Of a DNA stretch of 64,000 nt, positions 8,283-47,566 are shown in pieces (the stretch's first letter is position 1; the number at the start of each line of letters is the position of its first letter). Source of the stretch: Meghimatium bilineatum (lineage: Eukaryota; Mollusca; Gastropoda; Stylommatophora; Philomycidae); contig CM067316.1 in NCBI GenBank assembly GCA_034231615.1, positions 28,606,214 through 28,670,213 of the forward strand, read 5' to 3'. The position numbers and the translations under genes are program-made. The notes below the pieces were generated by a model, which saw only the letters and a program-made list of their open reading frames with translations, ran no database searches and was not told the DNA's origin.

Positions 8283-8420
8283 GGTAAAGGTTATCCTGAC
8301 AATGGAACCAGACTTCTCTTGAAACAACTGTGGTCCACTTATCAACTGCCCATATTTGTACTTGTGGATGCAGACCCTCATGGCATTGAAATCATGATTA
8401 TCTATAAATATGGATCTAAG
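8283..8420 (+). CDS. SPO11: SPO11 exon with Toprim DADPHG motif
   Basis: This 138-nt exon (46 codons, phase 0 at both ends) follows TTGTTGTTTCTAATAAG and is followed by GTAGTG. It encodes 'GKGYPDNGTRLLLKQLW', then 'YQLPIFVLVDADPHGIEI', ending 'YKYGSK'. Known SPO11/TopoVIA proteins carry a DxD metal-binding pair in the Toprim domain; here it is the DAD of VDADPHG (codons 29-31). The segment corresponds to the human region that starts GKGVPD and ends at KYGS. The donor GTAGTG is a weak match to GTRAGT but leaves the protein collinear with the family. The next upstream exon (a 'VEKDATFQ' type sequence) was looked for in 1-8282 and not found. Confidence 0.92.
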
Positions 8421-9790
8421 GTAGTGACCACTGTATCAATTCTCAGTCATCTCACCTTCTATTATTTAGCTGGTGTCATTGAGTGTTATATATAATTTTA
8501 TTTACGTATTTCCACTGAACAAACATTTAAAAGATGCTGCTAAACGGAAGTGAGAATTTATGGTTCTTTCTTAGTACGTGGGTGCCGGATCTCACACTTT
8601 TCAATATACCGACTTCGCGTTTTTAATAATTTATTCCGGTTTCTAGTTTATAACGCACCAGTTGCAACAACCTGTTGCCAACCAAAAAAACATTAGGCCT
8701 ATGTCGCAAAATTTAAACATGACCAAACTGGTTAAGTTACCTGTAGTAAAATGTAAACATTAGGCCTATCTTGCAAGTGCAACACAACATTAGTCCTATG
8801 TCGCGAGTGCGGCAAAACATTAGGACTGTAGGTAATTTGGCATTTGGGATTAGTATTGGAAAATTTTGCTTAGGCTATAAATTTATTGTGACAGGGTTTT
8901 AAATAGTGATGGCATCGTTTGTCATGTTTGAAACCAGATTTATTAAGTTCTGTAACAATTTTTCTTTTTATATAGGCCTATGTAATTTTTCAGAAAGTAA
9001 AACGATGCCCAAACCAGCAGTTAATATTTTAAAACATCAACATTATGCAAATTAGCCAAAATTTTGAATATTTATATATTCAAAATGAATATTGAATATT
9101 TTGAATAGTTGTACGTACATCTGAGAATCACAGCAATGTGATGAATAGTAGCGTTTTGTCTTTATGAATACAAAACGATATAGTTTCTGTCGTATTTTAT
9201 TATGTTTAATAGATATATAATTTATTTTCATTATAATTAGCTGCCGTTTTGAATATCAATTAGTTCTGTGTCCATCTGAAAATTCTAGAAATGTTATCAA
9301 CATAAGCGTCTTGTATTCACGAACAAAAAAATGTATAGTTTGTGTAAGCCTATTGTACGAGTATTATTGGAAATAACAAAGATAATTGAGAAATTATCAT
9401 CTTGGCTACATTTTGTGGTCACAAGTTTTATTTATATTTTCCTATATGTTTCATGTAAATTATTTTGATGTCAAATTCATTAGAAATAAATTATAATTTT
9501 TTTTCAGTATTGACATGTACAGACTTGGCTGAGGTATCATGAATTGCAATTTTCAAGGGCTATCTAACTATATTATTTGTAATTATGTAGCACTATTTTT
9601 AAAATTTTGTCAAAGTACCTAAACCAAGTGAAGTAAATTAGATTAGTTTGTGAATTTCATGTTTCGTCGCTTGATATACAGTAATACTGTGTCCTGTCAG
9701 AGTATTGGTAGCAATACTGTTATAAATAACCAAATGGTCAGAGCGTGTCCGACAAAGTGGATGGTGCCGCAGTAACCTAATGAACAAATA
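8421..9790. other. Intron 1, AT-rich, no gene seen
   Basis: Only short degenerate repeats are visible. One is a cluster of AACATTAGGCCTATGTCGC-like units at 8694-8830. Another is an imperfect duplication in which 9119-9200 resembles 9274-9355 (both start CATCTGA and share TAGCG/AAGCG and TATAGTTT). The interval 9360-9790 shows nothing recognisable. Confidence 0.5.
8694..8830 (+). repeat. Degenerate short tandem units
   Basis: Four units related to AACATTAGGCCTATGTCGC occur near 8694, 8757, 8790 and 8815. The last three are spaced about 25-33 bp apart. The core AGGCCTA also appears near 7930, 8009 and 8975, so it may be part of a wider local repeat. Confidence 0.5.
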
Positions 9791-10065
9791 GTCAAGCAAA
9801 ATGAATTAAACAGGTTACTAAAACACTTACCTTGTCTATTAATAAAAATATATTTAAAAAAGTATATATAAAAAAAACATACAATAAAACTAAACAGGAC
9901 AATTCTCCACGTATCGGCTCAAATTGAACCTTTTTCAAGAGACAAACAACAGAAAACAACAAAATAAAAAACAAAATAGATGACTAGATTTCATCAAGCC
10001 CCGTCTCCATAGCGCAGGGATGGCAACGCATCTAATTAAAGAGAAAATGCGTGCATTCATTATAA

Positions 10066-10378
10066 ACAAACCGAAAGTGGGAAATTAGAGGCACTATAGA
10101 TGTAGTTGGGATGTTTATAATGAGTGCAAGAATAAAAAGAAAAAGATAATAAAAATACCCCTTTTGTCACTTTATCAGACAGGCAGGTTTTAAGAACATA
10201 GTCACAACAGGCAAGACTGAAGGGAACAGAGACAGATGGGGACGTGAGAAAATATTCTTGTGACAACCTAGCAAGGCTTGGAAACAACGATCCTGATAAC
10301 AATACTGTGAACAGAGAACCATGGTCACCTACGCCAACCAGAATGGCATATGATAATGATAGATGAGTAATGATGAGG
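10066..10378 (+). mobile_element. L2/CR1-like fragment B4 with internal deletion
   Basis: The sequence matches B3 in order: AGTGGGAAATTAGAGGCA, then CAGACAGGCAGGTTTTAAGA, then ACGTGAGAAAAT, then the GAACAGAGAACCATGG end near a short GATGA tract. About 110 bp present in B3 (39180-39290) is missing. There is no usable reading frame. Confidence 0.65.
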
Positions 10379-10379
10379 T

Positions 10380-10988
10380 TGTGTGGTGGTGGGGTGAGTG
10401 GGTTTGGGGAAGGAAGGATACAAGAAGAATCATCATTTGAAAGCGCATGGAATGAATGTGAAACCAAATATAGACATAAACATATATATAAAACCAAACC
10501 TAAACATACATAGAAATGTATACACACACTGCTTCCTAACTCTTAATAATTTACTCGCATTCCACAGCCAGTTGTCATAATCATTGTCTACTACAACTAT
10601 TTTCCTGAAGCGTTCACCGTCTGCTATAACTAATTTCCGGCACCAGTTCTCTTCCCTTACCTTGACTTATATTGCGCTACACATTTCGTAAAAGTTCACA
10701 TAGTTTTGTTAAATTATTGGCACCTGCTTACTAGGAACGTACCGAATGGATAGAACAGTATGTCCTCCAGCTGTTATTTTCTGTCAATATTTTGGCAGCA
10801 TCGAGTAACAAAAAAAATACATGTAGCACATGTTCCTATATGCTGCTCTTTTCTAGCAACATCATATTTCACTCCCAGGTCCTGCATTCTAGCCATAGAC
10901 ATGGAAGAAGAAATACTCACCACATCATTCAACTGGTGTAACTCCTAGATTGCATTCGAAATATTAGCACCATCCATTGAACTACAAA
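10380..10988. other. Intron 1, no gene seen
   Basis: Short frames only (60 codons or fewer) without recognisable motifs. No repeats are shared with the rest of the window that I could see. Confidence 0.4.
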
Positions 10989-11095
10989 TCATGCGGTTGT
11001 ATCTGTGGGTCTCACCAATGGCACACTAGAAAAACAGCACATGCAACAGAAAACCTTAGTAGATGACATGTTGGTATAGTGAGGCTATCTTATGG
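10989..11095 (+). mobile_element. 5' fragment of SINE-like repeat F (F2)
   Basis: The sequence from CATGCGGTTGTATCTGTGGG to GACATGTTGGTATAGTGAGG matches the first about 105 bp of F1 (5158-5260). It then passes directly into G1 sequence. Truncation at this junction may be due to later G1 insertion or rearrangement. Confidence 0.65.
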
Positions 11096-13370
11096 AAGTT
11101 TTGTAGTTTGGTAATAAACGATAATATCGCTGATGAGGAACTGGTCTCGTTGAAGAATGTAAAAGATACCATAAATAAAACATCGGATGGCACACCAGGA
11201 AAAGATACCGTAAAGAAAACATCAGATGGCGCACCAAGGCCCTATGGAATACGCTACAGCCTCCTGAAAGGTATTGCAGACGACCAGCTTAAAATAACTG
11301 TTGATGATTTCAACACGTCTAAAAACAGGACGTATACCAGAAGAGTGGCTACACAGCTACCTTCTCCTCCAGGCAAAGACAGTTCCGACATCAAGAATTA
11401 TCGTATCATCACTTTACAAAATGTCTACGGCAAGGTGCTGGAGATAATAATCGCTACAAGACTGACATTCAATTTAGAAAATAGAGGTCTACTTCCTGTT
11501 ACTCTAGGTGCATACAGACCGAGGAGAGACACGACCATAAATGCGGCAGTCATCGCCTATGACATCTACGAGGGATTTCAGACAAAGAAAGAAACAATGG
11601 TCGCCACCGTCGACCTAGAAGATACTTACAACAGAGTCAGCTTTGGCCAGCTAATACATCTGCTAAACGAACGCAGCATCGACTAGTGGATAATTCGATG
11701 GATAGCAATGGTATTAATGTTCAGACCTGTTGCTCCGAGATTGGGATCCTGGACATCAGAAATCAGAACTATAGCACCGGGATTACCACAGGAATCGCCA
11801 CTATCACCTGTGCTCTTTAATGTCTACACATACAAAATAGCGCAGCTTCAAGACGCTGGGCCCGACAGGATACTAACATATGCGGATGACCTCTTGCTAT
11901 ACAATCACGGCAGAAACAGAAGAGACATGATTGAGGACGTCCAGCGTAATCTAGAAGATTTGTCGCTCTGGTGTACTAACTTCAAGGCAGTTATCAATCC
12001 CACCAAGGCAAACATCATCTGGTTCTCACTGAACAACAAAATAGTCACAGACACATTACCAGCAGTCTCCTGCATGGGCATCAACATTGACAGGGAGCAG
12101 ATTATGAAATATCTAGGCATCACTTTTAATAGAAGTCTATCTTTCGCGAAACATGTGGACAATATCATTCAGAAAGCTGGGAGTGCAGTCAAAATCATGT
12201 CATCTGCAGAGATGCCGCAATGAACCCTTTTTCAGATGATATGGCAGTGGTATTATCTGTGTTGGACTATGGTTTAGGGTTATTAACACTGTCGCAAACA
12301 CAGGTGGATAGATTGGAGAGAGTTCAAAATGAGACCATGAGAGCTGTCTTAGGATGCACAAGCGATACACCTATCGTGGCCATGAGGTTTCTCCTAGACC
12401 TACCCTAGCATCACATCAAGACATAAAATAGCCCAGGTTAAAGAATGCTTCAAGGTCGCAATAATTATGTCTTACACCAATCTCTAGACAACACAAAAGG
12501 AAAGCGAATCAAGAGAGGAAGGTCCTGGATGTCAGAAGCAGAAGATACCCTACTCAGAGTTTGTGAGCTTGAGGAAGTGGGAAGAGGCTGTGAATGGGTG
12601 ACATTTGGCAAAGAGAGAAAATTATTGTCAGCAGTGGTGATACAGTTGGGAAGAGAGTGCCGCGACTGGGCTGCCAACAGAACAGAGGAAATGATCCATG
12701 AACTCATATTGCAGCACTCGAAGCCACACGATACAATAATTTACACAGACGGCTCAGTAACGCAAGAAACAAATAGGTGTGGTTGGGGTTTCATGGCCTA
12801 CCAAAATGGCAAGACATTATGTGAGAAATCAGCTGCCTACCCCAATACAACATCGAGTATGAGAATGGAAATAGAAGCGGTGACAGCAGCTGTCACTTGG
12901 CTAGCGACGCAACCACCAACAGACTCAGTTATTCTATCGGACTCTCAAAGTATGCTGCGCAAGATAGAAAAGTGTATGATCAGAACTGAATGGGTCACTC
13001 TTCTCGACAATGCGCAGAGCATTACATAGATTTACTGTCCTGGTAATGCTGGGGTCAGGGGAAACGAAAGAGCCGATGTGTTCACTGATAAAGCTTTGGT
13101 GAATGCATCGAGATAAGAAGAGACATTATTGAATTGATTAGAGCAGTCATGGATAGCCTACGAGAAGACGAGGAGGAAGTCGAACGTGACAATGTACATA
13201 TTCAGAGAATGGTAGAAATGGGAGTGACTAGAGGTGATAGGAGAAAGTGCTCCCTCTCCGGAAAGATCAGAAGTTTAAAAATACTTATGTGGGGCATGGT
13301 ACAAAAAAGGTTGGAAAACACTGGATTAACCCTTTCAATTCCGGCCGATGAAGAAAAACTCTGGGCTTCG
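11096..13370 (+). mobile_element. I/R1-like non-LTR element G1, 5'-truncated and decayed
   Basis: This is the same family as G2 (22.6-26.3 kb), lacking the endonuclease. RT frames are at 11063-11686 ('YRIITLQNVYGKVLEIIIA', 'ATVDLEDTYNRVSF') and 11708-12223 ('PGLPQESPLSPVLFNVYT', 'LTYADDLLLYNHGR'). A connection frame lies at 12220-12408. RNase H lies at 12445-13029 ('IIYTDGSVTQETN', 'MRMEIEAVTAAV', 'ILSDSQSMLRK') and continues after a stop as 'YCPGNAGVRGNERAD' near 13035-13075. At least four stops or frameshifts disable it. A 40-bp tandem duplication lies at 11160-11238. Confidence 0.85.
11160..11238 (+). repeat. 40-bp tandem duplication inside G1 RT
   Basis: Two adjacent units (AAAAGATACC...GGCACACCAGG and AAAAGATACC...GGCGCACCAAGG) are about 90% alike and keep frame. 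They duplicate a 13-residue block reading KDTINKTSDGTPG then KDTVKKTSDGAPR. This is at the usual GPDG motif position of the RT. Confidence 0.8.
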
Positions 13371-13853
13371 CACCTAGGGCAAGGGAAATAACTCTGCAAA
13401 AATGAGGTGATTGTACAATAAAATTAATATAAATATGGAAGAGGTATTGATCAGCGAACATATCTTTGACAGTTTCATGTTAGACAAGTTTACTTGTCAT
13501 GTAACAAAAAAATAGGGTTTCTTGTCAGCTTCATTTAATTGCGTCAAAATATTTGCTAATAAATGTTCAAATGGACAGCTGAAAAACAGCTCCCCAGTAA
13601 ACAACCTCTGTTTCAAAAATAATGGAACCATCCAGGAACTAAAGCTGCAGGCGGCGGACCGTATCATATGGAGAACCAAAACCTCTGCACTATGTGTTGC
13701 TTGCAGCACGAAAGGAACAAACTAAGTGAACAACACCATTCTGTAACTTAACTACACCAAACATATAAGCCTATTCACATAAAAATAGCCCTATAATCTG
13801 ATCAAGTAAATTCTTGTTGGAAGCAAGATGATAAATTAAATATTCTTGAGACC
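13371..13853. other. Intron 1, unassigned
   Basis: It contains a 67-codon + frame (13522-13725), followed by a stop, with no recognised motif and no splice context that I can defend. Otherwise it is AT-rich DNA. Confidence 0.35.
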
Positions 13854-14095
13854 AACAGGAATTTAACCAGTCCGTTCTGATGGCACCAAATCATATGGAA
13901 ACTAAAGTAAATAGATTTTTCGGTGCTTGCGCATCTCCAAAAAAGGATGCGATTTTGTCAAGACATTCACATTGTGCACTCAAGTCACTTAGAACGGACG
14001 AATCGAGGCAATGACTATTACAACAACAACGAACATCCCGTACAATTATTGAAGTATCCTCAGTAACATATAACATCCGTATTGGAAACAACTAA
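13854..14095 (+). repeat. Repeat H, single-arm copy
   Basis: The sequence from ATTCTTGAGACCAACAGG to CAGTAACATATAACATCCG matches both arms of the inverted-repeat element at 43265-43912. Shared landmarks are AACCAGTCCGTTC, GCGCATCTCCAAAAAAGGAT and ACAACGAACATCCCGTACA. On the minus strand the end carries a degenerate tRNA T-arm-like box. No coding potential. Confidence 0.75.
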
Positions 14096-14149
14096 TCACA
14101 GTAACAAACAAATACAGAGAGATCCGAATGTGTATCTAAACGCACATGA

Positions 14150-14345
14150 AACAAATGTTATGACAACAGACGAACAAAGATCAAACCAATAATCAAAATA
14201 GACAATATAGAACTGGAATGTGTAAACAAATTTGAATACCTTGGATCAAGTATAAACAGTTCCAGGAATTGTGTGGTTGAGATCAAAAGAAAACTCACAA
14301 TTGCAGCATTCAAACTAAACACAAATGAGAAAGCTGTAGCAAAGT
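14150..14345 (+). pseudogene. Short RT C-terminal fragment
   Basis: One frame reads 'IDNIELECVNKFEYLGSSIN', then 'CVVEIKRKLTIAAFKLNT'. This is the 'FkYLGs.i...g....EI..R...A' signature that follows the RT domain in L2/CR1-like elements. No other part of the element is adjacent. Confidence 0.65.
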
Positions 14346-14529
14346 AGTAATAATGACACTAAAATAATCCTTTTAACTTTTAGAACACTGAATTAAAATG
14401 ACACAATTTCCCCTTGGGCCTGGATTCTATTCTTACAATTTGCGTTATTTTGTGTGAGTGTTTGGAAAATTCAAATTTTTAGAGATTGTGAAATAATTTT
14501 TTCACATATAAAAAAATAAGTGAATAAGC

Positions 14530-15420
14530 ATTAATGGAGTGGTTCTGTTCTCGAAGTCCACAATGGTTTGATTCAAAGCTTTCTCAATTGCTATTATCTC
14601 TTCTGTGTAGTTAGAACAGATATCTCCACATGGGCCAAACATTTTGCTTAGTATTTAGGGTCTGTGTTCGGGTATTTTCTCACAGCTCCATATCCAGCAG
14701 TTGTGGTAGCGTTTTGTGTGGATGCATCTGTGTATACATGAATTATATCTGGTGAGTATGTATGAATTGTTTCTAGGGCAATGGTTTTTAGGAATGAGGT
14801 TACAGTGTTCTAATCTGCCGAGGGGTCAGAGAGTTTGGCCCTTATGGTAGGAGTTATTACTTGTCTGCAGGGCGGTTCAATGTCTATCTTTTCCTCTTGT
14901 TCTCTGTTGGCAGATGGTGCTTTTTGCTTGCTTTTCTTGCATTATTGAGGAACGATGTTTTGAGTATTATGTGTTTTTCCTGACACTTTTCCGTCATTTT
15001 AATATTTTCTTCTGTGGTGTTAATTTTTCATGTATCTTTCAAAGGTCTCTACTACCACTTGTCCTCTTCTTATGTGCAAGGATTCTATGTCTGTGTGGAT
15101 CTCACATGCATCAGTCTGGTGGTTGTCATTGCACCGCATATGAATCGTAGTGCGTTATTTTGGACTTTTCTAATCTCTGTAGGAGGCTTTTTCTTGCTAT
15201 TGCCTGTACAGAAAGTGAGTAGTCAATTGCTGATCAGACATATCCAGTTAATAACTGACACAGAGCATGCAAATCAGTTCCCCACTTTAAGCATGAAGTG
15301 AAATGCTTTATCCTTGTGATCGTTTTCTTAATCAGATTTTCTATGTAGTGCTCCATTGTGAGCCTCTGATCAAGTTCAATTCGGAGATATCTTGGGAATT
15401 TCTCATATGCTATTATTATT
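14530..15420 (-). pseudogene. Jockey/I-like RT C-terminus and RNase H fragment (M)
   Basis: On the minus strand from 15420 the order is 'FPRYLRIELDQRLTMEHYIE', 'TRIKHFTSCLKWGTDLHAL', 'RLEKSKITHYDSYAV', a diverged linker, 'IIHVYTDASTQNATTTAGYG' (RNase H first motif) and a broken 'LTTQKR*QQLRKL' region. Several stops and frameshifts are present. Both ends are truncated and no target duplication was seen. Confidence 0.65.
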
Positions 15421-15579
15421 ATATTTTTATACTCATAATATTCAAACAAATAAAACACTAGGAAAACCAATAAACAAATAGTAAAACATAGAGTTGTCTC
15501 TTACTTAGCATGCCAATCCGGTCCGTTGAACATTAGGTTTAGAGATATTTCAATCTGACACAAATCTTATGTGCTAGGC

Positions 15580-15898
15580 TTATATGAAAGCGATGAAATG
15601 TCTGGCTCTGTTCTTTGAAAGTAGTATGCATATTATCTCAAATAGAGAACTTATTAATTGTATTAGAAGACGACAATCACAGTTCCTGGGTCATGTCATG
15701 AGAAGAGGTGGGCTGGTGAACATCGTAACACTGGAAAGATCGAGGGTAAGAGAGACAGCGGAAGACAACATAAGAAAATGTTGGATGGCTTGAAAGCCGG
15801 GCATGATGCAGAAGCACCAGAAACTATATTTAAATGTATAACAAACAGAGGACTGTGGAGAAACATGATCGGCTACGCTGGAAGGCATGGTACCAATG
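15580..15898 (+). pseudogene. 3' end of an L2/CR1-like RT element (O)
   Basis: The frame 15584-15793 includes 'NRELINCIRRRQSQFLGHVM', 'GGLVNIVTLERSRVRE' and then, after a stop, a 'DCGETW' type end. It finishes in a GAAT tetranucleotide tail (TGAATGAATGAATGAA). The final 90 bp are repeated in the second direct repeat at 17457. Confidence 0.7.
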
Positions 15899-16364
15899 AA
15901 TGAATGAATGAATATATATATATATATATATATATTTAATTATATAGTATAGTATGGAATTGTATGGTATGGTATGGCATGGCATGGCATGGCATGGCAT
16001 GGCATGGTATGGTATGGCATGGTATGGTATGGTATGGTATGGTATGGTATGGTATGGTATAAGACTTTCTACTTTTTACGTTTCTAGTGAACAAAAGTTT
16101 TACTATTACTAATAACATTTTTAGCAGTGTACATCTATAAATAAATTTTCAATATCGCATCACAAATCACAACAGGTAGAAGATAATTATCTAATTTTTG
16201 CTAAATGTAGCAGTACAATCCAAATGACCTTTTATAAATGAACTGACATGGTACTATAGACACCCACCATATAATCTGTAGACATAAAATCAACACATGA
16301 GAGATTAAAGCAAATGTGTATCTTTGATTATGCATGTCTTTGTCTACATCTACCCCTTACACTG
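15803..16364 (+). repeat. Direct repeat copy 1, 60 bp upstream of a SPO11 exon
   Basis: The sequence from ATGATGCAGAAGCACC to CTACCCCTTACACTG is repeated at 17457-19021 (the latter interrupted by a 1073-bp MITE). Unique-sequence parts are about 95% identical by eye; only the internal pentamer array differs strongly. The two copies are in the same orientation and flank the SPO11 exon at 16425-16501. Confidence 0.85.
15911..16060 (+). repeat. TA tract and TATGG/CATGG pentamer array
   Basis: A 25-bp TA tract is followed by TATAG units and then about 20 pentamers that alternate in blocks between TATGG and CATGG. The array ends at ATAAGACTTTC. The matching place in direct repeat copy 2 holds TACAG units instead. 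Confidence 0.9.
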
Positions 16365-16424
16365 TCTATTGTAATACACTGCATAAATGTAAACACAAAT
16401 AAAAACTATGATAATTTTTTTCAG

Positions 16425-16501
16425 CGTCAAGCATTTGATAACATACATTTAGCAGTTCCTGCTATTGAATGGATAGGAATTCTACCTGAAGATGTTGACA
16501 G
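16425..16501 (+). CDS. SPO11: SPO11 exon, VPAIEWIG segment
   Basis: This 77-nt exon is bounded by AATTTTTTTCAG and GTAAGC, both good splice matches. It encodes 'RQAFDNIHLAVPAIEWIG' then 'ILPEDVD', with AG left over to begin an Arg codon completed by the next exon. It aligns without gaps to the human SPO11 region 'SFEAHHLTVPAIRWLGLLP'. The previous exon ends KYGSK, so the spacing to human KYGSMSMSF is exact. Confidence 0.92.
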
Positions 16502-17456: not shown

Positions 17457-17582
17457 ATGATGCAGAATCATCAGAAACTATATTTAAATGTATAACAAAC
17501 AGAGGACTGTGGAGAGACATGATCGCCTACGCTGGAAGGCATGGTACCAATGAATAAATGAATATAAATATATATATTATAT

Positions 17583-17650
17583 TACAGTACAGTACAGTAC
17601 AGTACATTACAGTGCAGTACAGTAAAGTATAGTACAGTACAGTATAGTAT
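17583..17650 (+). repeat. TACAG pentamer array
   Basis: About 13 CAGTA-type pentamers end in TATAGTATAAGACTTTC. This is the homologue of the TATGG/CATGG array in copy 1. Confidence 0.9.
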
Positions 17651-17916
17651 AAGACTTTCTACTTTTTATGTTTCCAGTGAACAACAGTTTTACTATTACT
17701 AATAATATTTTTAGCAGTGTACCTCTATAAATAAATTTTGCAATATTGCATCACAAATCACAACAGGTAGAAAATAATTATCTAATTTTTGCTAAATGTA
17801 GCAGTATGACCTTTTATAAATGAACTGGCATGGTACTATAGACACCCACCATATAATCTGTAGACATAAAATCACCACATGAGAGATTAAAGCAAATGTG
17901 TATCTTTGATCATGTA

Positions 17917-18989
<1,073 letters not shown>

Positions 18990-19021: not shown

Positions 19022-20590
19022 CATTAAAAAGTGGGAAAAATAATATTTGATTAAACAGAAGTGCTTACAAGATGGGCAGATTATGTGAAAACTGTTTGAT
19101 GACCAATGGAAAAAAAAACAACAATACACAACAATGATGGACCAGCAATACTGAAATCAGAAGTAGAACATGCAATAAAATGTAGAAAGGTTGCAGGCTC
19201 CGACAACATAACAGCAGACATAATAAAACTCTAAATGAGTTTGGTGTAGATACTATCACATAACTTTGCAATGACATATACGAAACAGGCCATATACCTA
19301 AAGACCTAACATCATCAATATTCATACCACTACCTAAGAAGCCCAGGGCTGTGGACTGTACATAATATAGAACAATAAGTCTAATGAGCCATCTAACTAA
19401 AATATTCCTCAAGATAATACATGGAAGAATTAAGAACAAGATAGACACAAAGGTTAGTGAAGAACAATTCAGTTTTAGGAAAAACAAAGGAACCAGAGAA
19501 GCTATACTGAGTATCCGACTAGGGATAGATAAATATATAGAAGTCAAAAAAGTATCTATATTTACTTCATAGACTACAGCAATGTCTTTAACAGAGTCCA
19601 ACATGAAAAATAAATCAAATGTCTTCAAATAATAGGTACAGATGGAAAAGACATCAGACTAATTAGAAATATATATTGGGAACTAAGTGCATCAATAAGG
19701 TGTGAAAACAGCTACTCACCATACATAGAAATAAGGAGAGGGTAAGACAAGGATGCATTTTATCACCAAGCCTGTTTAATATCTACACCTAGAATATCTT
19801 TAAAAATATAGAAGAAATGCCAGGACTCAAGATCACTGGGAAAATAATAAACAACCTTAGATATGCAGATGACACTGTTCTTTTGGCGGAAAATGAACAT
19901 GAAATACAAAGACTAATAGATCAAGTCAATAAATCAAGTAATGAATATGGACTGGATACAAATATAAAAAAAAACAAAAAACCATGATAATCAGCAAAGA
20001 CACAGAAGGAGGTAAACATAAACATACAGGGAGAGAAACTACAACAAGTAAAACATTATCAATATTTTGGACACATAGTCACAAATGATGGCAGATGTCA
20101 AAGAGAAGTTAAAAGAATAGGAATGGCTAAAAGTACCTTCAATGACATGAAGAAATTATTAATTTCTAAACAAATTACAAACAAGGTGAAAATGAGAATT
20201 ATAAAATGCTACATCTATTCTATATTAATGTATGGCTCAGAAACATGGACACTAAATAAACAATTAGAAGACAAAACTGATGCCTTTGAGATGTGGGTAT
20301 ATAGAATAATATGGAGAAATCATGGAAAGAGAAGAAAACAAATAAAGAGGTGCTAAAGACACTTAATATGAAGAAAGAACTACTAAGAGAAATGAAGATC
20401 AGGCAAATATGAGAGTAAAGTCACAGGGACTCGAGCAAGAGGTAGGCAGATACAAGTAGGAGAGTAACATCACACGATGGACAGGTTACAGTCTAGCAGA
20501 GTACACCACCAAGACAAGAGACAGGAGATGTTGGAGATGCGTTGCAGCCAACCTTCAATGCGGAGACGGCACTTAATGATGATGATGAGA
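19022..20590 (+). pseudogene. RT and 3' end of L2/CR1-like element C
   Basis: Broken frames give 'LCNDIYETGHIPKDLTSSIF', 'YRTISLMSHLTKIFLKIIHG', 'KVSEEQFSFRKNKGTREAIL', a remnant 'NNLRYADDTVLLAENEHE' near 19850-19900, a post-RT block, and 'MRIIKCYIYSILMYGSETWT' at 20190-20250. The 3' end reads GTTGCAGCCAACCTTCAATG, GGAGACGGCACTTAA and then a GATGATGATGA tail. The same 3' end occurs twice, head to head, at 27209-27345. It is 5' of a piggyBac remnant. Confidence 0.8.
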
Positions 20591-21473
20591 TTCTGATGAG
20601 GAGGAAATTGTGGAATTCACAGAGGCAGACATCGCTCCATTAGATGATGTGATGTTGGAAAGAGATAATATTAGTGACACTGGTTCTGTTGGCAGTGTGA
20701 CTGACGACATTTTGAAGGATGAGATTGTTAATAATTCTCGTGCTCCTTCAGGTTATAGTCATGATTGGATTTGCGACTTCGATGAAGTTATTGGACCTAT
20801 AGGCTTAGCTGACAACGTTAGTGAGGTAGATGTGTTTCATCTGTTTATTACATATGATATTCTCGAAATTTTGGTGACTGAAACTAATCATTATGCTAAA
20901 CAGGTTAGTAAATCAAAGAAGGGACAGGGCGTGAGCAATTCATCTCGTGTGAAGCTGTGGAAGGAAGTCACAGCTAATGAGATGAGAACATTTGTTGCTT
21001 TGGTGCTCTTGGTGGGAAAAACGTTTATCCTTTGATTTGTATTGGTCAAATGATTGTCTCCTTGACATGCATGGGTTCAGGAAAGTCATGAGTAGGAACA
21101 GATTATTAGCTATTCTTTCATTCCTGCACCTTGTGGACAACATAAAAACTGTTTCACAAGAGCAACCCAGCCGCAGCAAGGCGTTCAAGATACAAGCGTC
21201 TGTAAACAAACTTCTTCCTATTTTTCAACAATATTATAGTCTCTCCATTTACTTGCGTCGATGAAAGAATGGTTGCTTTCAATGGTAGGTCTTTTGTCTT
21301 ATGCAGTACATGCCCAAGAAACCCTCAATGTGGGGTATAAACGCTTGGGCACTGACTGACTCGAAGACTAATTATCTCTGGAACTGGAAGCTGTACCTTG
21401 GGAAAGAGGACAACGTGGACCAAACCATAGAATTGGCTCACAATGTTGTGAGTCATTTGTTATTCCCCATGCA

Positions 21474-22224
21474 AAAGCTAGTGCTGTATTTGGCAGATTA
21501 CGCAACAATGTATGGGACAGAAGAGGTATAAGAACAACCACCAAACTACAAGTATATCATGCTGCTGTTATACAAACCTTACTATACGCCTGCGAAACGT
21601 GGACAGTGTATGCTAGACATGCAAGAAAGTTAAATCATTTCCATCTTACCTGCCTACGTAAATTACTAAATATCCATTGGTGGGACAAAGTACCAGACTA
21701 CGAGGTCTTGGAAAAATCAACCTCAATAAACATCCACACAATACTTATGAAGGCGCAGGCACGCTGGGCAGACCATCTTGTGCGTATGGAGAACTCGCAT
21801 TTGCCAAAACAAATATATTATGGAGAACTCAAGGCAGGATTTCGAAAAGCTGGTGGACAGAAAAAGCGTTTCAAATACACGCTCAAGTCATCCTTGAAAC
21901 ATCTTAACATTGACGTAGGCGCTTGGGAGAGCCTCACTCAGGATAGAACAGCATGGCGTTACAGCATTAGAACGGGAGCACTAGCGGCGGAAGAATTCAG
22001 ACAAGAAACTGCAAGACAGAAGTGGACACGTAGAAAAGAAAAAAACATCTCAACCTCACACAGATACCTTGTATTGTTGTCAATTCTGTAAAAGAACATT
22101 TTGTGCGCGCATTGGACTTGCTAGTCATTTAAAAACGCACTATTAACTTTATTATTTTATTATTTATTGTTATTATTATTATGGTTGAGTTTTTGGTCAT
22201 CGTCGATCACGACGGACGAACATC
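21474..22224 (+). mobile_element. 5'-truncated L2/RTE-like element K2 inside the piggyBac
   Basis: It is flanked by the 12-bp duplication ATTCCCCATGCA at 21462-21473 and 22225-22236. Removing it and one duplication restores the host frame 'VVSHLLFPMHDKGHVVYMDN'. The frame 21606-22091 encodes the RT C-terminus ('ARHARKLNHFHLTCLRKLLN', 'RWADHLVRMENSHLPKQIYY', 'WESLTQDRTAWR'). A frameshift near 22070 leads to a terminal C2H2-type finger, 'CQFCKRTFCARIGLASHLKT'. It ends in TTATTATT tracts and a GATCACGACGGACGAACATC 3' end. Confidence 0.88.
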
Positions 22225-26274: not shown

Positions 26275-26672
26275 CTAACTAACTAACCTACAAGTGATGG
26301 AAGAAAATTTTCCTTTGCTTTGGAAGCTTGCTTTGTGAATTCACGTGTCCTTTGACGGGCTAAACATCATGGCCAAGTGATGACAGAAAAATTTCGCCTG
26401 CAGATTGTTTATGGACTTCTTGAGGGTCGCCAGTCTAGGTCTTCTTCTTCCACAAGCAGAAGAAGAGCTAGCCACCATCCGGATAGGATGGCAATATGAG
26501 CACCACAATACAATGCTATCAATCCTAAACGGTTGCCCAGTAGCAAACCTGAATTTCCTGACTTTGTAGTCTGTTCAGAGCGGTCAAAGAAGTGCCACCA
26601 GGTCACTGTGCCCATATCCCTGCTTTCAGAAATACCACACATTAGTCAAATTTTAAAATTAACTATACATCA

Positions 26673-37622: not shown

Positions 37623-39562
37623 AGAGAATGTACACAATATAGGGCATTGCACTACTAAGCCATGTAGGCAAAATGTACGCCAAAATTATAGAATCTAGGC
37701 TAAGATCCATTATAGAAACATAGCTATCCGACGAACATATGGGATTTAGAAAAAACAGAAACTGCACAGATGCAATTTTTATTCTCAGGCAGATGGTGGA
37801 GAAAAACTTATCATACAATAAGAACCTTTTTGTAACATTTGTAGACCAGGAGAAAGCCTTCGATAGAGTAGATAGAAGCGTTCTATGGTACACACTGGCT
37901 AACTATGAAGTCAACAACCACTTATAAAAGTATGTCAAAGGTTATATGTGAACTGTGAGAGTTCGAACGAATAAAGGAACATCAAAATCATTTACAGTCA
38001 CACCGTCAAGGAGTTAGGCAAGGATGCGTTTTATCACAACTCCTGTTCATCACATATATCGATAGCATTACGAAAATGCCAAGATGCAAAATGAAAATAC
38101 CAAAAGAGTTACTCTTTGCCGACGATCAGTCTATAATAGCAAATGAAGAAATAGAACTTCAACGTCATCTAACATCCATGGACATCGAGTGCAAGAACAA
38201 CAACATGAAGATAAGTATAGATACAACAGAAAACATGGCAATAGGATGGGATACACACCATATAAATATATCAGTAGAAAATCGAGTCATTAAACAAATC
38301 AACACCTTCAAATACTTAGGCGTAACATTCTCTTCAGATGGAAAGATGGACACCGAAATAGACATTCGTTGTAGCAAAGCGAATCAAATACTGGGTCAAT
38401 TATCCCCTTTATTGCAACACAAAATGCTACCAATGGCAACAAAAAAACATCATATCCACAGTATCTTCATTCCAACCCTGTGCTACTAATGTCAAACATG
38501 GTCCTTAACAACAAAACATAAGAGACAACTGGTTACAACAGAGATGAGATGCCTAAGAAAAACCACAGGAGTGACCAGAAGGCAACAGAATTAGAGACGA
38601 TGTCATAAGAGAAAGAGTGGGTGTCATATCAATTATACAATACATATACCAACAGATACAATGGTTTGGTCATCTGGAAAGAATGTCATGTGATTCATTA
38701 GTTTATAAAGCATATATGAAGAGAGTTTTGCATGAGATGCAGATGACACTGTTCTGATTGCAAAAAGTGAGGAAGACCTTCAAGATTTAATTAATGTAGT
38801 AATCACAGAAAGTAAAGAGAAAGGCCTCTTCCTAAATATCAAGAAAACAGAAGTAATGGTTATTTCAAAGAAACAAAATAACACACCTTGCAAGATCAAA
38901 GTGAATGATATAGTATTAAAACAGGTCCACCAATTCAAATATTTAGGTACAATGATTACAGCAGATGGAAGAAGTTCAACAGAAATAAGATAAAGAATAG
39001 GACAGGCAAAAACAGCATTCAGAAAAATGAAAAATATACTGTGTAATATGACCTTGTCATTTATAGGTGAGAAAGAGAGTTCTGCAGTGCTATATAACCC
39101 TTATACTAACATATGGGTACGAGTCTTGGACAATAAACAAACTGTAAAGTGGGAAATTAGAGGCAACAGAGATGTGGTTCTACAGAAAAATGCTGAGAAT
39201 ACCATGGACTGCCAGAAAAACTAATGTAGAGGTGTTGAAAGAGCCAAATGTGAAATGGACCTTAATCAACAATATAAGAAAAAGGCAATCTTATTTTTTT
39301 TGCCACTTCATGAGACAGGCAGGTTTAAAGAACATAATCACAACAAGCCAAAATTGAAGGCAACAGAGGCAGAGGACGACAACGTGAGAAAATGTTAGAC
39401 AATCTGCCACGGCAAGGAAACAACAACGATCATGATACATAATAATGTGGACAGAGAGCTGTGGAGAGCCATGACCGCATACGCCAGCCGGCATGACACC
39501 TGATGATGATGATGATGAAGAGAGGAGAAGCAGAAAGAGGAGTCAGGGGTAGACCTAGAGCC
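37623..39562 (+). mobile_element. L2/CR1-like element D1, interrupted by B3
   Basis: RT frames: 37739-37927 ('GFRKNRNCTDAIFILRQMVE', 'TFVDQEKAFDRVDRSVLWY') and 38076-38489 ('KELLFADDQSIIANEEIELQ', 'FKYLGVTFSSDGKMDTEIDI'). It continues in broken frame to 38725 and, after B3, at 39525-39562 (GAGAAGCAGAAAGAGG). The same end region is uninterrupted in D4 at 42.5 kb. 5' and 3' ends are missing. Confidence 0.82.
38726..39514 (+). mobile_element. 5'-truncated element B3 inserted in D1
   Basis: It is flanked by ATGAAGAGAG at 38716-38725 and 39515-39524. It ends in a GATGATGATGAT tail. It encodes, with breaks, 'KKTEVMVISKKQNNTPCKIK', 'FKYLGTMITADGRSSTEIR', 'MWFYRKMLRIPWTARKTNVE' and 'FMRQAGLKNIITTSQN'. 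Removing it and one duplication gives TATATGAAGAGAGGAGAAGC, as in D4 at 42525-42545. Confidence 0.9.
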
Positions 39563-41720: not shown

Positions 41721-41836
41721 GACTTTACATGTGTGAGAATGTCTATTTTGCATATATAGACTTTACATTTGTGAGAATGTCTATTGTGCCTACATAGACT
41801 TCACATTTCTGAGAATTGTCTATTTTGTTCATGCAG
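41721..41836 (+). repeat. SPO11: 38-bp tandem repeats ending at the SPO11 exon acceptor
   Basis: Three units (41721-41758, 41759-41796, 41797-41835) each start GACTTTACAT or GACTTCACAT and end in a pyrimidine-rich TCTATTTTG/TGTGC plus CATATA, CTACATA or TTCATGCA. The fourth unit begins at 41836 with GACTTCACATTCC, where the A at 41837 is the first exon base. Each unit therefore repeats a polypyrimidine/AG acceptor and the first about 10 bp of the exon. Units 2 and 3 present ATAG|ACTTTAC and ATAG|ACTTCAC as acceptor look-alikes. Confidence 0.9.
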
Positions 41837-41948
41837 ACTTCACATTCCAGAATCAGCATTGAGCCCCATGTCATATAAAGATCTACGAAAATGTGAGTCA
41901 CTGAAGAAAAGACCATATTTTTGCCATGATGAAAGCTTACTAACAGAG
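41837..41948 (+). CDS. SPO11: SPO11 exon, RLHIPESAL segment
   Basis: This 112-nt exon lies between TTTGTTCATGCAG and GTAAGTGGG (strong donor). Its first A completes the Arg codon split by the previous intron. Then come 37 codons: 'LHIPESALSPMSYKDLRKCE' followed by 'SLKKRPYFCHDESLLTE'. It matches human 'RLNVPKDSLIPLTKRDQMKL' and 'RRPYVTCQPFWRKE' in order and spacing. Phase 0 at the end. Confidence 0.93.
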
Positions 41949-42104
41949 GTAAGTGGGGGTGCAAGCATATATAGGACATGCAACAGGAATATTTGAGGTA
42001 GTTGAAAAAAGTCTGATCAGCTAGGACAATTGATGCAATAAATCATACTAATACTCTTTGGTCGAGATAAAATTTTAATAAATCCCTGTGATATTCACAT
42101 TCAA

Positions 42105-42722
42105 GTCATTAAACAAACCAACATCTTCAAATACTTAGGCGTAACATTCTCTTCAGATGGAAAGATGGACACCGAAATAAACATTCGTTGTAGCAAAACG
42201 AATCAAATACTGGGTCAATTATCCCCTTTATTGCAACACACAATGCTACCAATGGCAACAAAAAAACGTATCCAAAGTATCTTCATTCCAACCCTGTGCT
42301 ACCAATGTCAAACATGGTCCTTAACAACAAAACATAAGAGACAACTGGTTACAACAGAGATGAGATGCCTCAGAAAAACCACAGGAGTGATCAGAAGACA
42401 CAGAATTAGAAACGATATCATAAGAGAAAGAGTGGGTGTCATCAATTCTACAATACATACAAAACCAACAGATACAATGGTTTGGTCATCTGGAAAGAAT
42501 GATGTGTGATTCATTAGTTAATAAAGCATATACGAAGTGAGGAGAAGCAGAAAGAAATGCCAAAGGTAGACCTAGAGTACGCTATATAGACAACATCAAA
42601 GAGACATTACATGAACACCAAATAAAATTATCTGAAGCTGCCAGAAAAGCGAGAACAAGAACATTACATCTACCTCGACACCCGTAAGGGGTAAAAGAGG
42701 AAGAAAAGAAGAAGAAGAAGAT
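42105..42722 (+). pseudogene. Family D 3' fragment D4
   Basis: The frame 42165-42509 ('DTEINIRCSKTNQILGQLSP', 'FIPTLCYQCQTWSLTTKHKR', 'VTTEMRCLRKTTGVIRRHRI') and its continuation ('DNIKETLHEHQIKLSEAARK') are nearly identical to D1 at 38.3-38.7 kb but without the B3 insertion. It ends in an AAG tail near AGAGGAAGAAAAGAAGAAG. It is 5'-truncated. Confidence 0.8.
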
Positions 42723-43263
42723 GTTCAAATTTTTGTATTCGCTCATGAATAACCAGCACAAAATCTGGTTGTTTTTTTTTAAACAATGGCCGACCAGATT
42801 TTAAAACACAAAATATAAATTGCAGAGTAAACTGCAGGAAAAGAAAGACAAATTGCTGCACTTTTAGATTTCAGCTCAAATGTGTTTATTTATGCACAAA
42901 ACACTTTCTCATCATATAATGGAATTTGTTCCAGTGACAAATTTCCATTCTCAAAATCCTATGTTTTACGACAGACATTATTGCTTTTCAGGAAATATGT
43001 TTTGGAGATGGTATTTTATGTTGCCAACTTCAGGTTTTTACCACAGGTGGCACATATGAATGGCTATTGCTGTGCGGGAAACTTTCATGGTATCAGAAAT
43101 ATATATGTCAGAAGCAACAGTAATGAATTGCTGCTGCAAGCTATTAAATTACAGTTTAGCTACCATCTATATTAATCAATGTTTATACATTTTATCTGCA
43201 AATAAAATCCTACTAAATGACTCTAGAATTACCAGTAGCTGTAAGGTCGATTCCCCTGTTGAC
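42723..43263. other. Intron 3, unassigned
   Basis: A 97-codon + frame (42882-43175) has several Cys/Tyr but no motif that I recognise, no splice-site support and no relation to SPO11. I treat it as non-coding. Confidence 0.35.
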
Positions 43264-43264
43264 A

Positions 43265-43984
43265 ATTCTTGAGACTAACGGGAATTGAACCAGTCCGTTC
43301 AACGGCACCAAATCGCCTATCAACTATTGAACACGCGTTCTTGCGTACTTGACTAACGCATCTCCAAAAAAAGATGCGATTTCATCAAGCCATTCAAACC
43401 GTGCACACAAAGTCACCAGACTGGACTGATCGAGACAATGGCTATTACAACAACAAACATCCCGTACAGGTATTGAAATATCCTCAGTAACAACAAACAT
43501 ATAACATAATATCCGTATTAGTTATACAAGGGCCGATAGGTCTTCTTGTAAACATGGATAACATATATAGACAATACGATTTTTGCTTCGAATAATTGTT
43601 TATACAAGTTAATATAAGTTGGAAGCCAGAGGACAATTAAAAAAAATTCTAATATGGATATTATGTTATATGTTTGTTGTTACTGAGGATATTTCAATAC
43701 CTGTACGGGATGTTTGTTGTTGTTGTAATAGTCCTTGTCTCCATCAGTCCATTCTGGTGATTTTGTGTGCACGGTTTGAATGGCTTGATGAAATCGCATC
43801 TTTTTTTTGGGAGATGCGGTTAGTCAAGTACGGAAGAACGTGTGTTCAATAGTTGCTAGGCGATTTGGTGCCGTTGAACGGATTGGTTCAATTCCTGTCA
43901 ATCTCAAGAATTTTTAAAATTGTCCTCTGGCTTCCTACTGTATTTACTTGTATAAACAATTATTCGAAGGAAAAATTGTATTGT
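43265..43984. mobile_element. Inverted-repeat (foldback) element H
   Basis: Left arm 43265-43520 and right arm 43651-43912 are long, near-perfect reverse complements (about 255 bp). A second pair, 43571-43638 and 43917-43984, is also inverted, giving the order X, spacer, Y', X', Y. A single X arm also occurs at 13854-14095. The X end reads on the minus strand as GGTTCAATTCCCGTTAGTC, like a tRNA T-arm (B box). There is no ORF. It may be two tRNA-related SINE copies in opposite orientation or a true foldback element; the sequence alone does not decide. Confidence 0.8.
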
Positions 43985-44443
43985 ACCTTAGTAGATGACA
44001 TGTCATTATATTGAGGTTATCTTCTTATAGAAGCTTAATGGCACTTCATATATACAATTGTGCTTCTCCTACTTTTATTTTTTGTTGCAGTGTATTTTAT
44101 GCTTTGTTGTTGTTTTTTTATATGTATACACCCTCTGTGGTTGGGAGGGAGTCAGAGATGTACTGCGCAGCACTGGGCATGAGGAAACTGACAGCACTAT
44201 TTTTTCCTATGGCTTAGACCCATCATAGAGGTACAGTGACTCAGGACGTGAGAATCCTTTTGACTTGAACATTTGGTTGCATGCCTAGAGCAATAGAGAA
44301 GCTCGGCATAACAAATAGTCAATTGGTGGCGGGGAATGAGCACAGTGAACCCTATCTTGGATACAGTGGCTTGGAGCAATGCATAGGTTGAAACCTACCT
44401 TCCTGGTGGCGTAATAGTTGTTCTCTGACTCTGGCCCGGAGAG
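43982..44443 (+). mobile_element. SINE-like repeat F3
   Basis: It matches F1 from ACCTTAGTAGATGACATG (F1 5224) to CTGACTCTGGCCCGG (F1 about 5645). It lacks both the first about 70 bp and the E-type tail. Confidence 0.82.
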
Positions 44444-44477
44444 GCCCCGCATATCTGAAGCCTGACTGGGCATCCAA

Positions 44478-45465
44478 GGACCAGCACATCCGTTTTTGTC
44501 ATGCTTTTATTTCGGCTAATGGGTTTCCATAATATGTGACAGTCTTCCTATCTGTCACCAGGCGATGGATGTGTGTTGACTCTTCACCGTGATAGTTTAT
44601 CACCCACTGTACCCTTGGACTTTTCAGGCCAAAACACATCCCTGAATGATAGTCAATGGAGACGGTAGTGAGGAATTTAGACGTGGGTCGACTGCACGAG
44701 GTGTTCCACTGCCATTGAACTTGTCTCGCTTCATTAAACATATTGTACCTGTGCCATCGAGTACTCAACCATTTCTCTCCGTGAGCATGATTTCGGTATA
44801 GGAAAGCAATAGAATTGGGTCTGGATTTGTTCGCCCTCTTAGCCGAGGTGTCATTCACCGACATCGCGAACACCTCGTCCAAGTCTGAGTCTACACATTT
44901 TTAGGAGCACAGAGACCTGGAAGCTTTTACTCGAGCTGAACAAACTCTCACCACCAGCATGATTCCTATATAGGATCTGTTAGGAGCACTAGGACTAGAA
45001 GTCTTTTCTCCAGCTGAATAGTACTTTAGTTCCGGTTTTGTTTTAACATTTTTCCTTTCTGTTTTACATGTAGCACTGCCCTCTGGTGCTGTGCTGCACT
45101 CTCATTGTACTCAATATGTTGTCTTTTGGATTTGCTATTCGTCATGATATCTGCTCATTTCTTGACAATTGCATTGGCCACCTCTGCAATGCTCGAGATG
45201 CACTGAGCTGCGTCAGTGTCTGTCGACCATGACATTGTATGTGTTGACACAAAGGTGTCAGAGATATTGCTTGCCTTTTGCAGTCAATTCTCATTCCATC
45301 TGCAATCTGCACGTTAGCGGACACAATTCTAAAAGTGTATACCAGAAGCAGCATGTGTCGATATACTTCTGTTTCCAGAGTGCACCATGAGGAAGTACTT
45401 TTTGAGATCTTAGTTATCTGCTAATCCTGGTTCCACAGAGCATTTAGGTATCCTTAGCACCCCAA
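44478..45465 (+). repeat. Unclassified about 1-kb repeat J1
   Basis: It shares with J2 (50300-51445) a series of landmarks in the same order: AGCACATCCG, ACGAGGTGTTCCACTG, CGCCCTCTTAGCCGAGGTGT, GCACTGCCCTCTGGTGCTG, GCATTGGCCACC and GAGATCTTAGTTATCTGC. No frame is conserved between the copies. J1 has one copy of the internal repeat that is tripled in J2. Confidence 0.75.
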
Positions 45466-45580
45466 ATCATATGTATTAGGCTGAAAGACGCAGATATTGC
45501 AACAAAGCTGTAAACTATGCCACAATATGTTCCATTCTTCGGAGTACATCAGCTCGAGCTTGCGTTCTAAGTACTATGAC
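45466..45580 (+). repeat. Fragment of SINE-like repeat I
   Basis: TATGTATTAGGCTGAAAGAC, GCAGATATTG and ATTCTTCGGAGTACATC match 62175-62290 inside G3. It directly follows J1 and precedes reverse element D3. Confidence 0.65.
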
Positions 45581-46935
45581 CGTGTCTGTTCAGGATGTCC
45601 CCAACGTTTTCTATCCATACCTTGATCTCATTTGGTTATATGGTACTGGCAACCTGTTGTGATGCATTCTCATAATGTGGCCAAACCACTTGATCTGCTG
45701 TCATAATTATTTAATATGTACAAGGCATTATACCTATTCTTTCCCTGACATCTTCATTTCGTAATCTATCGACTACATTACTCCTGTTTGTATGAATATT
45801 TCCATGATTTTCATTGGTCACTGGTTGACAACGCATCACAGTAAGCACTGAAATATTCAGTTACGCCAACTATGAATAAAATTTAACACTTGCCTACTGT
45901 AAAATTCAAAATTTGATCGTTTGTTAAGCTCTCAATGGTAATTGTTTATGTCACTGCGTTTTATTTCTGAAATCTTGATTCTATTTGTCTAGTTTCCCAT
46001 TTTCTGTAAAAAAAAACACCACTTCCTAGATATTTGAATTCTTTTGTTTGTTTCACTGCTGAATCGTCTATTGTGATATCTATTGTTGTTGGTTAACTTG
46101 CTGATTTTGATCACTTCTGTCTTTTGTATGTTGATTTTCATGTGATACTTCTTGCAAGATGTTGACAGTGCATCTATGTGGATTTACATGTTTTCTATGT
46201 CATTGTATATCAGATTTTGATCATCGGCCAACAGCAGTTCATTTATTTCACTTATGTTTTTATCTACTGAGTTGCCTGCATTGTTTATATGTTCCTCTTT
46301 TAGAATAATAGCTTCTTTTGTTATTATATCCATATAGATATTGAAAAGTAAAGGGGAAAGCACACGGCCCTGTCTTATCCCCGATTTAGTTTAAAATGTT
46401 TCAGTCGTTCCATTTGCTTTTCTCACTGCACTTATGCAATTTTGGTATAGTGCTTTTATTTTGTCTAATAGCTGACCACTGATGTTGTTCTTCTCTAATG
46501 TTTCCTAGAGAATATTCTTATCTACTCTATCAAATGCCCTTTCCTGATCTATAAATATAGTGATGACATCTTGATTGTATTCAATAGCTTTTTCACATAG
46601 TTGTCTCCGTGTGAATAGAATGTCAATGCAGCTAGTCCCTCTTCTAAAATTAAGTTGAGTGGGACTTAGTTGAGGTTCTGTTTTGTGTCGTATTCTTTTC
46701 TCTAAGATCTTTGCGTATATTTTTCCTATATGACTTAGTAGGGAGATGGATCTGTATTTTTCACAATCCTTATTGGAACAACTATTGACTTTTACCAATC
46801 TACTGGAACTGTTCTCTCTGCCCATGCTATGCTGAATAATCTTGCCAACCATAGGATCCCCGTTTCTCCGCATGCTCTTATTGCCTCATTTGGTATACAA
46901 TATTCTCCTGTGTTTTCAGAATAATTATACAAAAG
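45581..46935 (-). pseudogene. Reverse L2/CR1-like RT element, family D-like (D3)
   Basis: The minus-strand order is 'SMGRENSSSRLVKVN', 'KYRSISLLSHIGKIYAKILE', 'DILFTRRQLCEKAIEYNQDV', 'FIDQERAFDRVDKNIL', 'GIRQGRVLSPLLFNIYMDII', 'INELLLADDQNLIYNDIE' (ADD box near 46230), a post-RT stretch with frameshifts, and 'QIKWFGHIMRMHHNRLPVPY' near 45640-45700. It is complete from mid-RT to C-terminus and 5'-truncated. The longest open part is 46873-46505. Confidence 0.82.
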
Positions 46936-47024
46936 TGAATGTACAAAAGCTAAAAAACTAAAATATGGTATCTGCTATCCCTTTGTGTCTTGTTTTGATT
47001 CTGTCCATTAATATTTTTTTTTAA

Positions 47025-47105
47025 ATTTGGTAGTGCATCCTATTCAGGACATAACCGTCAACCCAGCATTTTTTGGTTGTAGTGATTTTCTAGGCAATAT
47101 AAAAC
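47025..47105 (+). repeat. Dispersed repeat N, copy 1
   Basis: TAGTGCATCCTATTCAGGAC, then TTGTAGTGATTTTCTAGGCA, recur at 51955-52035 with about 80% identity. Function unknown. Confidence 0.6.
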
Positions 47106-47449
47106 GAAAAAAGTTTGTTTTTTTGGGGGGGGGGGGGGACACACACATTATCCCGTACTGAACCAAACATAACAATGTCATGCATGTTGTAAGTAGCAAC
47201 TAAGGAGGTTTGACTTTTCTTCATAAACCTCACATTACTGGACTTTAACATTTCAAAGGTAATTCAAATCCTGGCCAGCTTTCCTTCTCAACATATCATG
47301 TGCTCAAATTTATTGAATTGACTTCAGCATATGCCTATCTGCTCTCTGGGTTTCAGTCTCTTTGTCCTCCAACTTTTGGTCTCAACAAGTGCTCCAATTT
47401 ATTAGTACTGAATTGTAATAATACATTCTTGTGTTGCTCACTTCCTCAG

Positions 47450-47566
47450 ATTGACTTGTTGGTGGAGATGAAAAAGAAGGCAGAGATTCAGTGCCTGGAT
47501 ACAATCAGTTCCAACTACCTTTGTGATGTCTATTTACCAACTCGACTCAGTCTTTTAATGCCGTAA
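47450..47566 (+). CDS. SPO11: SPO11 last coding exon
   Basis: It follows TGCTCACTTCCTCAG (acceptor). It encodes 38 residues, 'IDLLVEMKKKAEIQCLDTIS' then 'SNYLCDVYLPTRLSLLMP', and TAA. It aligns to the human C-terminus 'EIMADSKMKAEIQALTFLSS' and 'DYLSRVYLPNKL' with the same spacing. The end is a few residues shorter than human. The exon is undisturbed although an RT element lies only about 500 bp upstream. Confidence 0.93.
   Translation: MDLLVEMKKKAEIQCLDTISSNYLCDVYLPTRLSLLMP

Follow-up and report, generated by a model that had tools for sequence, protein, structure and literature searches.

The four short exons in the 64,000-nucleotide stretch of DNA analysed here (the window) are almost certainly the 3'-terminal part of an SPO11 gene that is intact and, it appears, present once in a 1.6 Gb animal genome. 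Judged from its sequence, the gene as a whole is very probably intact, single-copy, and about 92 kb long. The SPO11 enzyme cuts chromosomes and so starts meiotic recombination. The features of the window, all on the forward (+) strand, are as follows.

1–8282 (+): SPO11 intron preceding exon A (8750 nt in full), its last 8282 nt
8283–8420 (+): SPO11 exon A, GKGYPD...DADPHG...YGSK, 46 codons, phase 0 at both ends (PF21180 match in its own genome, E 8.5e-15)
8421–16424 (+): intron following exon A, 8004 nt, with fragments of broken LINEs (RT and RNase H) at 11063–13026
16425–16501 (+): SPO11 exon B, 77 nt (splice join, tblastn)
16502–41836 (+): intron following exon B, 25,335 nt
38282–38725 (+): LINE-derived repeat copy preceding exon C, 93% identical to 42101–42541 and in the same orientation
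41721–41846 (+): 38-bp tandem repeat, the final unit of which is the exon C acceptor
41837–41948 (+): SPO11 exon C, 112 nt (splice join, tblastn)
41949–47449 (+): intron following exon C, 5501 nt
42101–42541 (+): second copy of the LINE-derived repeat, past exon C
47450–47566 (+): SPO11 exon D, the last, carrying the stop codon (splice join, tblastn)
47697–47702 (+): AATAAA, polyadenylation-signal-like, 131 nt beyond the stop

All four exons are present in the sequence with AG acceptors and GT donors, and when joined they give a single open frame of 147 codons plus a stop, with compatible phases. This bears out the exons and the junctions (8420/16425, 16501/41837, and 41948/47450) proposed in a preliminary description of this DNA. 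The open frames that hold the exons are only 88, 76, 73, and 105 codons long, so it was fair to say, as that description did, that the gene would not stand out by the length of its frames. The 147-residue join matches Pfam PF21180 (TOP6A-Spo11_Toprim) with an E-value of 1.4e-44 over positions 30–170 of the 170-position profile, which excludes chance. The exons encode most of the Toprim domain, including the DxD pair and the C-terminus. When the window was searched by tblastn with a provisional human SPO11 sequence as query, the top four hits were the four exons (E 2e-17, 3e-5, 2e-4, and 0.004), and the next hit was a LINE frame (E 0.38). An open frame does continue 5' of exon A (...FVVSNK preceding GKG), but it was judged noncoding, since the preceding exon finishes with LIT in phase 0 and is spliced straight onto GKG.

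Neither a motif scan nor tblastn found catalytic exons within positions 1–8282. In the animal's own genome (1.61 Gb), the exon with the metal-binding glutamate stops 468 bp short of the window, and the catalytic-tyrosine exon, which the preliminary description had suggested seeking upstream, lies ~17.6 kb before the window in the same orientation as the window exons (PF04406 match at C19:28588472–28588591). Five more exons join the window's four in frame, giving nine exons and 292 residues with both SPO11 domains: PF21180 (E 4.9e-59 over 1–170 of 170) and the winged-helix TP6A_N, PF04406 (E 1.9e-21 over 4–62 of 62). Together with the Toprim match of the window exons, this supports the original identification of the gene as SPO11. 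The tyrosine, within the winged-helix domain, and the glutamate both come from the upstream exons, which are in phase. All eight introns of the join carry GT and AG, and one joined exon is just 37 nt, with matching phase. The edges of the upstream exons were placed by eye to fit phase, with the acceptor of the first joined exon and the 5' end of the gene provisional, and the nine-exon model is N-terminally incomplete; a motif search did not find the stretch equivalent to human residues about 81–105.

The catalytic residues align with those of yeast Spo11 (PDB 8urq; phmmer E 1e-17), with the RDIFY, VEK, GKG-PD, and DADP motifs common to both. RDIFY, encoded upstream of the window, pairs with yeast RDIFY (the Tyr is chain position 135), VEKDA with yeast VEKEA (233), and DADPHG with yeast DADPYG (288/290), all positions being counted by hand. 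We take the Glu of VEK and the DxD pair to be the metal-binding residues. A published study (PMC12203943) describes metal-binding residues as conserved. The best-scoring stretch of the yeast match takes in DADP and its surroundings and goes no further than residue 196 of the 292-residue query. Compared with human SPO11, represented throughout by a provisional sequence, 285 residues align without gaps at 52% identity, domain order is shared, and the two C-termini lie no more than a few residues apart. RDIFY differs from human RDIYY in that Phe replaces the first of two adjacent Tyr, as it does in yeast. Family membership is shared with the A subunit (PDB 2zbk, 1d3y, and 2q2e) of archaeal topoisomerase VI, a strand-passing topoisomerase that works with a B subunit; the match takes in most of the 292 residues (E 1.7e-27 to 6.8e-20), and similarity is lower than to the provisional human SPO11. 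Scores were 310 bits to the provisional human SPO11 (blastp), at most 100 to the archaeal proteins, and 68 to yeast Spo11 (both phmmer), figures that come from different programs and not from a tree. They point towards animal SPO11, and the term 'animal' as used here follows from the similarity to that human sequence. The window-encoded part also hits six NCBIfam topoisomerase A models, in every case far below the cut-off. Two fumarylacetoacetase sequences in the PDB search of the same part (E 0.49 and 0.53) were taken as chance.

The introns are presumably longer than those of human SPO11, and they would be long because transposons accumulated there as in the surrounding DNA. The 25,335-nt intron holds LINE-like endonuclease/RT/RNase H frames at 22694–26274, two PF13843 transposase pieces, and other LINE pieces. 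Transposon-protein similarity plus self-repeats cover at least 57.4% of 8421–47449, a span that includes exons B and C; with repeats identified by these two means, the figure is a minimum. The earlier description of the 39 kb of intron as almost wholly transposon was therefore overstated. Gauged solely against the gene's own flanks, self-repeat cover is 10–64% in the nine intervals between identified exons vs 51% and 42% in the flanks. Elsewhere in the window, a 645-aa frame (55457–57394) matched no Pfam family at E ≤ 0.01, with one weak hAT dimerisation match below the cut-off. Scans of the window against Rfam (at gathering scores) and for tRNAs gave no matches, and a scan of viral contigs with the joined protein gave no relatives and one stretch that matched a pattern.

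The exon C acceptor is the final unit of the 38-bp tandem repeat, and earlier units contain decoy acceptors: AG|ACTTCACATT (exon start 41798, in frame) and AG|ACTTTACATT (41760, out of frame). It is unlikely that the in-frame decoy in the repeat is used as an alternative acceptor, which would put 13 extra residues (LHISENCLFCSCR following R) into the Toprim domain. The decoy AG at 41796–41797 does precede ten nucleotides identical to the start of exon C, and a start there would lengthen the exon by 39 nt with no stop and no change of frame; however, the decoy ends ACATAG vs ATGCAG at the true site, the second decoy is out of frame, and the 41837 form aligns without gaps to the provisional human SPO11, which the longer form would not. 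Somewhat less probable again is that this minisatellite is an acceptor ladder, in which 41837 would give the normal protein, 41798 a +13-residue Toprim isoform, and 41760 a frameshifted message, so that differences in unit number within a population could adjust the amount of active SPO11 and, with it, of meiotic breaks. The repeat-borne acceptor is a small, testable curiosity, with the same letters serving as splice site and as tandem-repeat unit.

The preliminary description also proposed that transposon-rich introns make SPO11 prone to ectopic recombination within itself. Possible substrates exist: exon C lies between direct repeats of 447 bp (93% identity, the longest identical stretch being 67 nt) and exon B between direct repeats of 531 bp (79%, longest identical stretch 46 nt), and losing either exon shifts the frame. 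An inverted pair (2684 bp, 97.3%, longest identical stretch 216 nt) has one copy in the gene (window about 23613–26290) and the other upstream of the gene, with the first eight identified exons in between, and thus exchange between the copies would split the gene. Nevertheless, a special, self-damaging hotspot is very improbable. Intron repeat cover resembles that of the flanks, and the in-gene pair with the longest identical run (787 bp, 92%, 142 nt) consists of inverted copies in a single intron, with no exon between them. The exon C repeat family has 2038 first-look candidate places genome-wide, so many genes will carry such pairs. SPO11 cuts genome-wide, so nothing singles out the SPO11 gene itself as a target; no rearrangement was seen, and we know of no rearranged allele. 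Substrates bracketing exons thus stand, and a hazard special to SPO11 is unsupported, because the family of the tested repeat pair has so many candidate places. A transposon load peculiar to this gene is likewise unsupported.

Least probable of all, and only barely credible, is that this is a pseudogene or duplicated SPO11 fragment with a working gene elsewhere, as the C-terminal content of the window, the repeat-rich introns, and the part of the N-terminal region that a motif search did not locate might suggest, whereas the tyrosine and glutamate exons lie upstream in consistent order, orientation, and phase, the nine joined exons have no stop or frameshift while several (not all) intron LINE frames are broken, and no second place exceeds either family cut-off among the candidates scored. 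In the animal's own genome, PF21180 matched two places (five candidates scored), exon A and the exon just upstream of the window, with no other at E ≤ 0.001. PF04406 had one place above its cut-off, the tyrosine exon (15 candidates scored), and six weaker ones below it (E 1.3 to 8.3). An intact SPO11 elsewhere, which the preliminary description had said would, along with a lack of RNA reads across the junctions, make this a pseudogene copy, was thus not found among the candidates scored with these two families; single-copy status refers to these searches, in which the best candidates were scored and which are sensitive mainly to two or three exons.

By analogy with the family, the spliced protein would act as a dimer with a TOP6BL-type partner, its tyrosine would attack DNA with Mg2+ held by the E and DxD residues, and the product would be covalently bound meiotic double-strand breaks. 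The biology of SPO11 here is standard. The sequence is settled as the end of a full SPO11 gene, which is useful for annotation, since gene finders can overlook exons this short (one is just 37 nt) when they are spread over ~92 kb.

The SPO11 exons proposed in the preliminary description (A-D) lie at its positions on the forward strand, and their boundaries internal to the gene are AG and GT:

8283-8420 (+), exon A
16425-16501 (+), exon B
41837-41948 (+), exon C
47450-47566 (+), exon D

The introns between them have phases 0, 2, and 0, and the joined frame comprises 147 codons plus a stop, with an AATAAA starting 131 nt 3' of the stop. Among Pfam families, the joined protein matches solely PF21180 (TOP6A-Spo11_Toprim; E 1.4e-44, profile 30-170/170) at E≤1; six NCBIfam topoisomerase A models also match (best E 1e-23), all far under their cut-offs. 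A PDB search returned A chains of archaeal topoisomerase VI, reaching E 4.6e-11, together with yeast Spo11 8urq at E 0.0011; two further matches, with E about 0.5, were set aside as chance level. A provisional human SPO11 sequence shares 51% identity with the window protein over 144 residues, gapless. The four exons are part of a real gene, their original reading was correct and careful, and a SPO11 gene here is ordinary biology.

We searched the M. bilineatum genome (1,612,235,226 bases, 32 contigs), where the window occupies C19:28606214-28670213, for the rest of the gene. Of five candidates scored with PF21180, two matched at E≤0.001, namely exon A and an exon just 5' of the window that covers profile positions 1-30. 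For PF04406, 15 candidates were scored and seven matched at E≤10: one over the cut-off (C19:28588472-28588591, E 6.3e-11) and six under it (E 1.3 to 8.3). A tblastn search with the provisional human sequence against the 100 kb upstream of the window located the catalytic-tyrosine exon that had been expected there (E 5e-8), a glutamate exon (E 2e-11), and three more exons (E 3.5e-4, 4.7e-4, and 0.004). Upstream edges were set by eye.

Upstream SPO11 exons (C19, own-genome contig coordinates)
about 28561886-28562024, further exon matching residues 41-80 of the provisional human sequence
about 28583800-28583892, tblastn and by-eye edges; acceptor unsure, 28583800 or 28583826
about 28588483-28588591, tblastn and by-eye edges
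about 28596191-28596277, tblastn and by-eye edges
28600780-28600816, 37-nt exon in the required phase
about 28605636-28605745, tblastn and by-eye edges

Joined from 28583801, with provisional opening codons, the last five of these and A-D form a single 292-residue frame whose eight introns all start with GT and end with AG. This join covers the entire PF21180 profile (E 4.9e-59), matches PF04406 (E 1.9e-21), and is 52% identical to the provisional human SPO11 sequence over 285 residues without a gap. Aligned with yeast 8urq, the RDIFY, VEK, GKG, and DADP motifs coincide; the yeast residues there are 135, 233, 288, and 290 (counted along the printed chain), which we take to be the catalytic tyrosine and metal ligands. 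An in-frame ATG lies a little upstream of the further exon, and a stretch for human residues about 81-105 was looked for and not found. The gene spans about 92 kb, its 5' end being unsure.

The nine joined exons read through without a disruption, and the candidates scored in the two profile searches include no second SPO11 locus. Together, this supports a predicted working gene. Several transposon frames within its introns are broken, though one young LINE-like element there retains a frame of 899 codons.

The exon C acceptor overlaps a tandem repeat with a 38-bp unit (41721-41846, 3.3 copies) that extends into the exon; an exact second copy of the AG and the exon's ten opening bases lies 39 nt upstream. 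Of 200,000 simulated sequences (first-order Markov, based on the 120 nt upstream), 21 attained a match of 12 nt, and across the window 12/4141 AG sites match over at least 12 nt; the other three window exons have no similar repeat of the acceptor, just 2-3 nt. An exon start at 41798 would give 13 extra in-frame residues, and one at 41760 would cause a frameshift. Alternative 3' splice sites are on record for plant SPO11 (PMC4071758), as is skipping of exon 2 in mammals (PMC12203943). A single strict-term literature search for minisatellites at acceptors brought up a DDX3Y report alone.

The introns had been described as nearly all transposon. The window holds 43 frames of at least 120 codons; of 29 scanned with Pfam, 16 match reverse transcriptase, RNase H, endonuclease, or DDE transposase families (one under its cut-off). 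Together with self-repeats and the copies of these frames identified by tblastn, they account for 57.4% of 8421-47449, 73.0% of 1-8282 (itself within a SPO11 intron), 47.9% of the window 3' of the gene, and no exon bases. Over 164 kb, self-repeats alone cover 10-64% of the nine intervals between identified exons (length-weighted 43%), 50.5% of the upstream flank, and 42.4% of the downstream flank. Because both measures are lower bounds, "nearly all" is neither established nor excluded; from the self-repeat comparison, SPO11 introns resemble the surrounding DNA.

Individual elements include a 165-bp perfect AT dinucleotide run (18382-18546) and two pieces of a piggyBac-type PF13843 transposase (20589-21032 and 22133-22540, another frame between), the run lying in the intron after exon B. 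The intron after exon C holds a palindrome of ~650 bp (43264-43912; 84% identity with its reverse complement) resembling a foldback or MITE-type element, with related pieces at 13803-14076. Beyond SPO11, a 645-codon open frame (55457-57394) has only a weak hAT dimerisation match under the cut-off and may represent either a largely intact transposase of the hAT type or a transposase-derived gene; a short search found no clear terminal inverted repeats.

A LINE-like element (22694-26274, intron after exon B) has endonuclease, reverse transcriptase, and RNase H frames. Its 3' part matches a copy in inverted orientation, some 113 kb upstream, at 97.3% over 2684 bp, so the insertion is probably young. 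Another inverted pair (27944-28717 and 38734-39512; 787 bp, 92%), within one SPO11 intron, could lead to pre-mRNA folding or inversion of the intervening segment.

A hazard of ectopic recombination within the gene's own introns had also been proposed, and repeat pairs do bracket exons:

15803-16332 and 17457-17914, around exon B; 79%, identical run 46 nt
38282-38725 and 42101-42541, direct repeats (same orientation) around exon C; 93%, longest identical run 67 nt
about 23613-26290 and a copy upstream of the gene, inverted; 2684 bp, 97.3%, run 216 nt, enclosing 8/10 identified exons

Deletion of exon B or C would cause a frameshift. In yeast, break levels in or near Ty elements differ widely from element to element (PMC3757047). 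For the exon C repeat, a first look across the genome gave 2038 candidates, and all 40 scored (query included) match at ≥93%. Such exon-bracketing pairs are therefore the general state of a repeat-rich genome, and a special risk to SPO11's own gene does not follow from SPO11 function.
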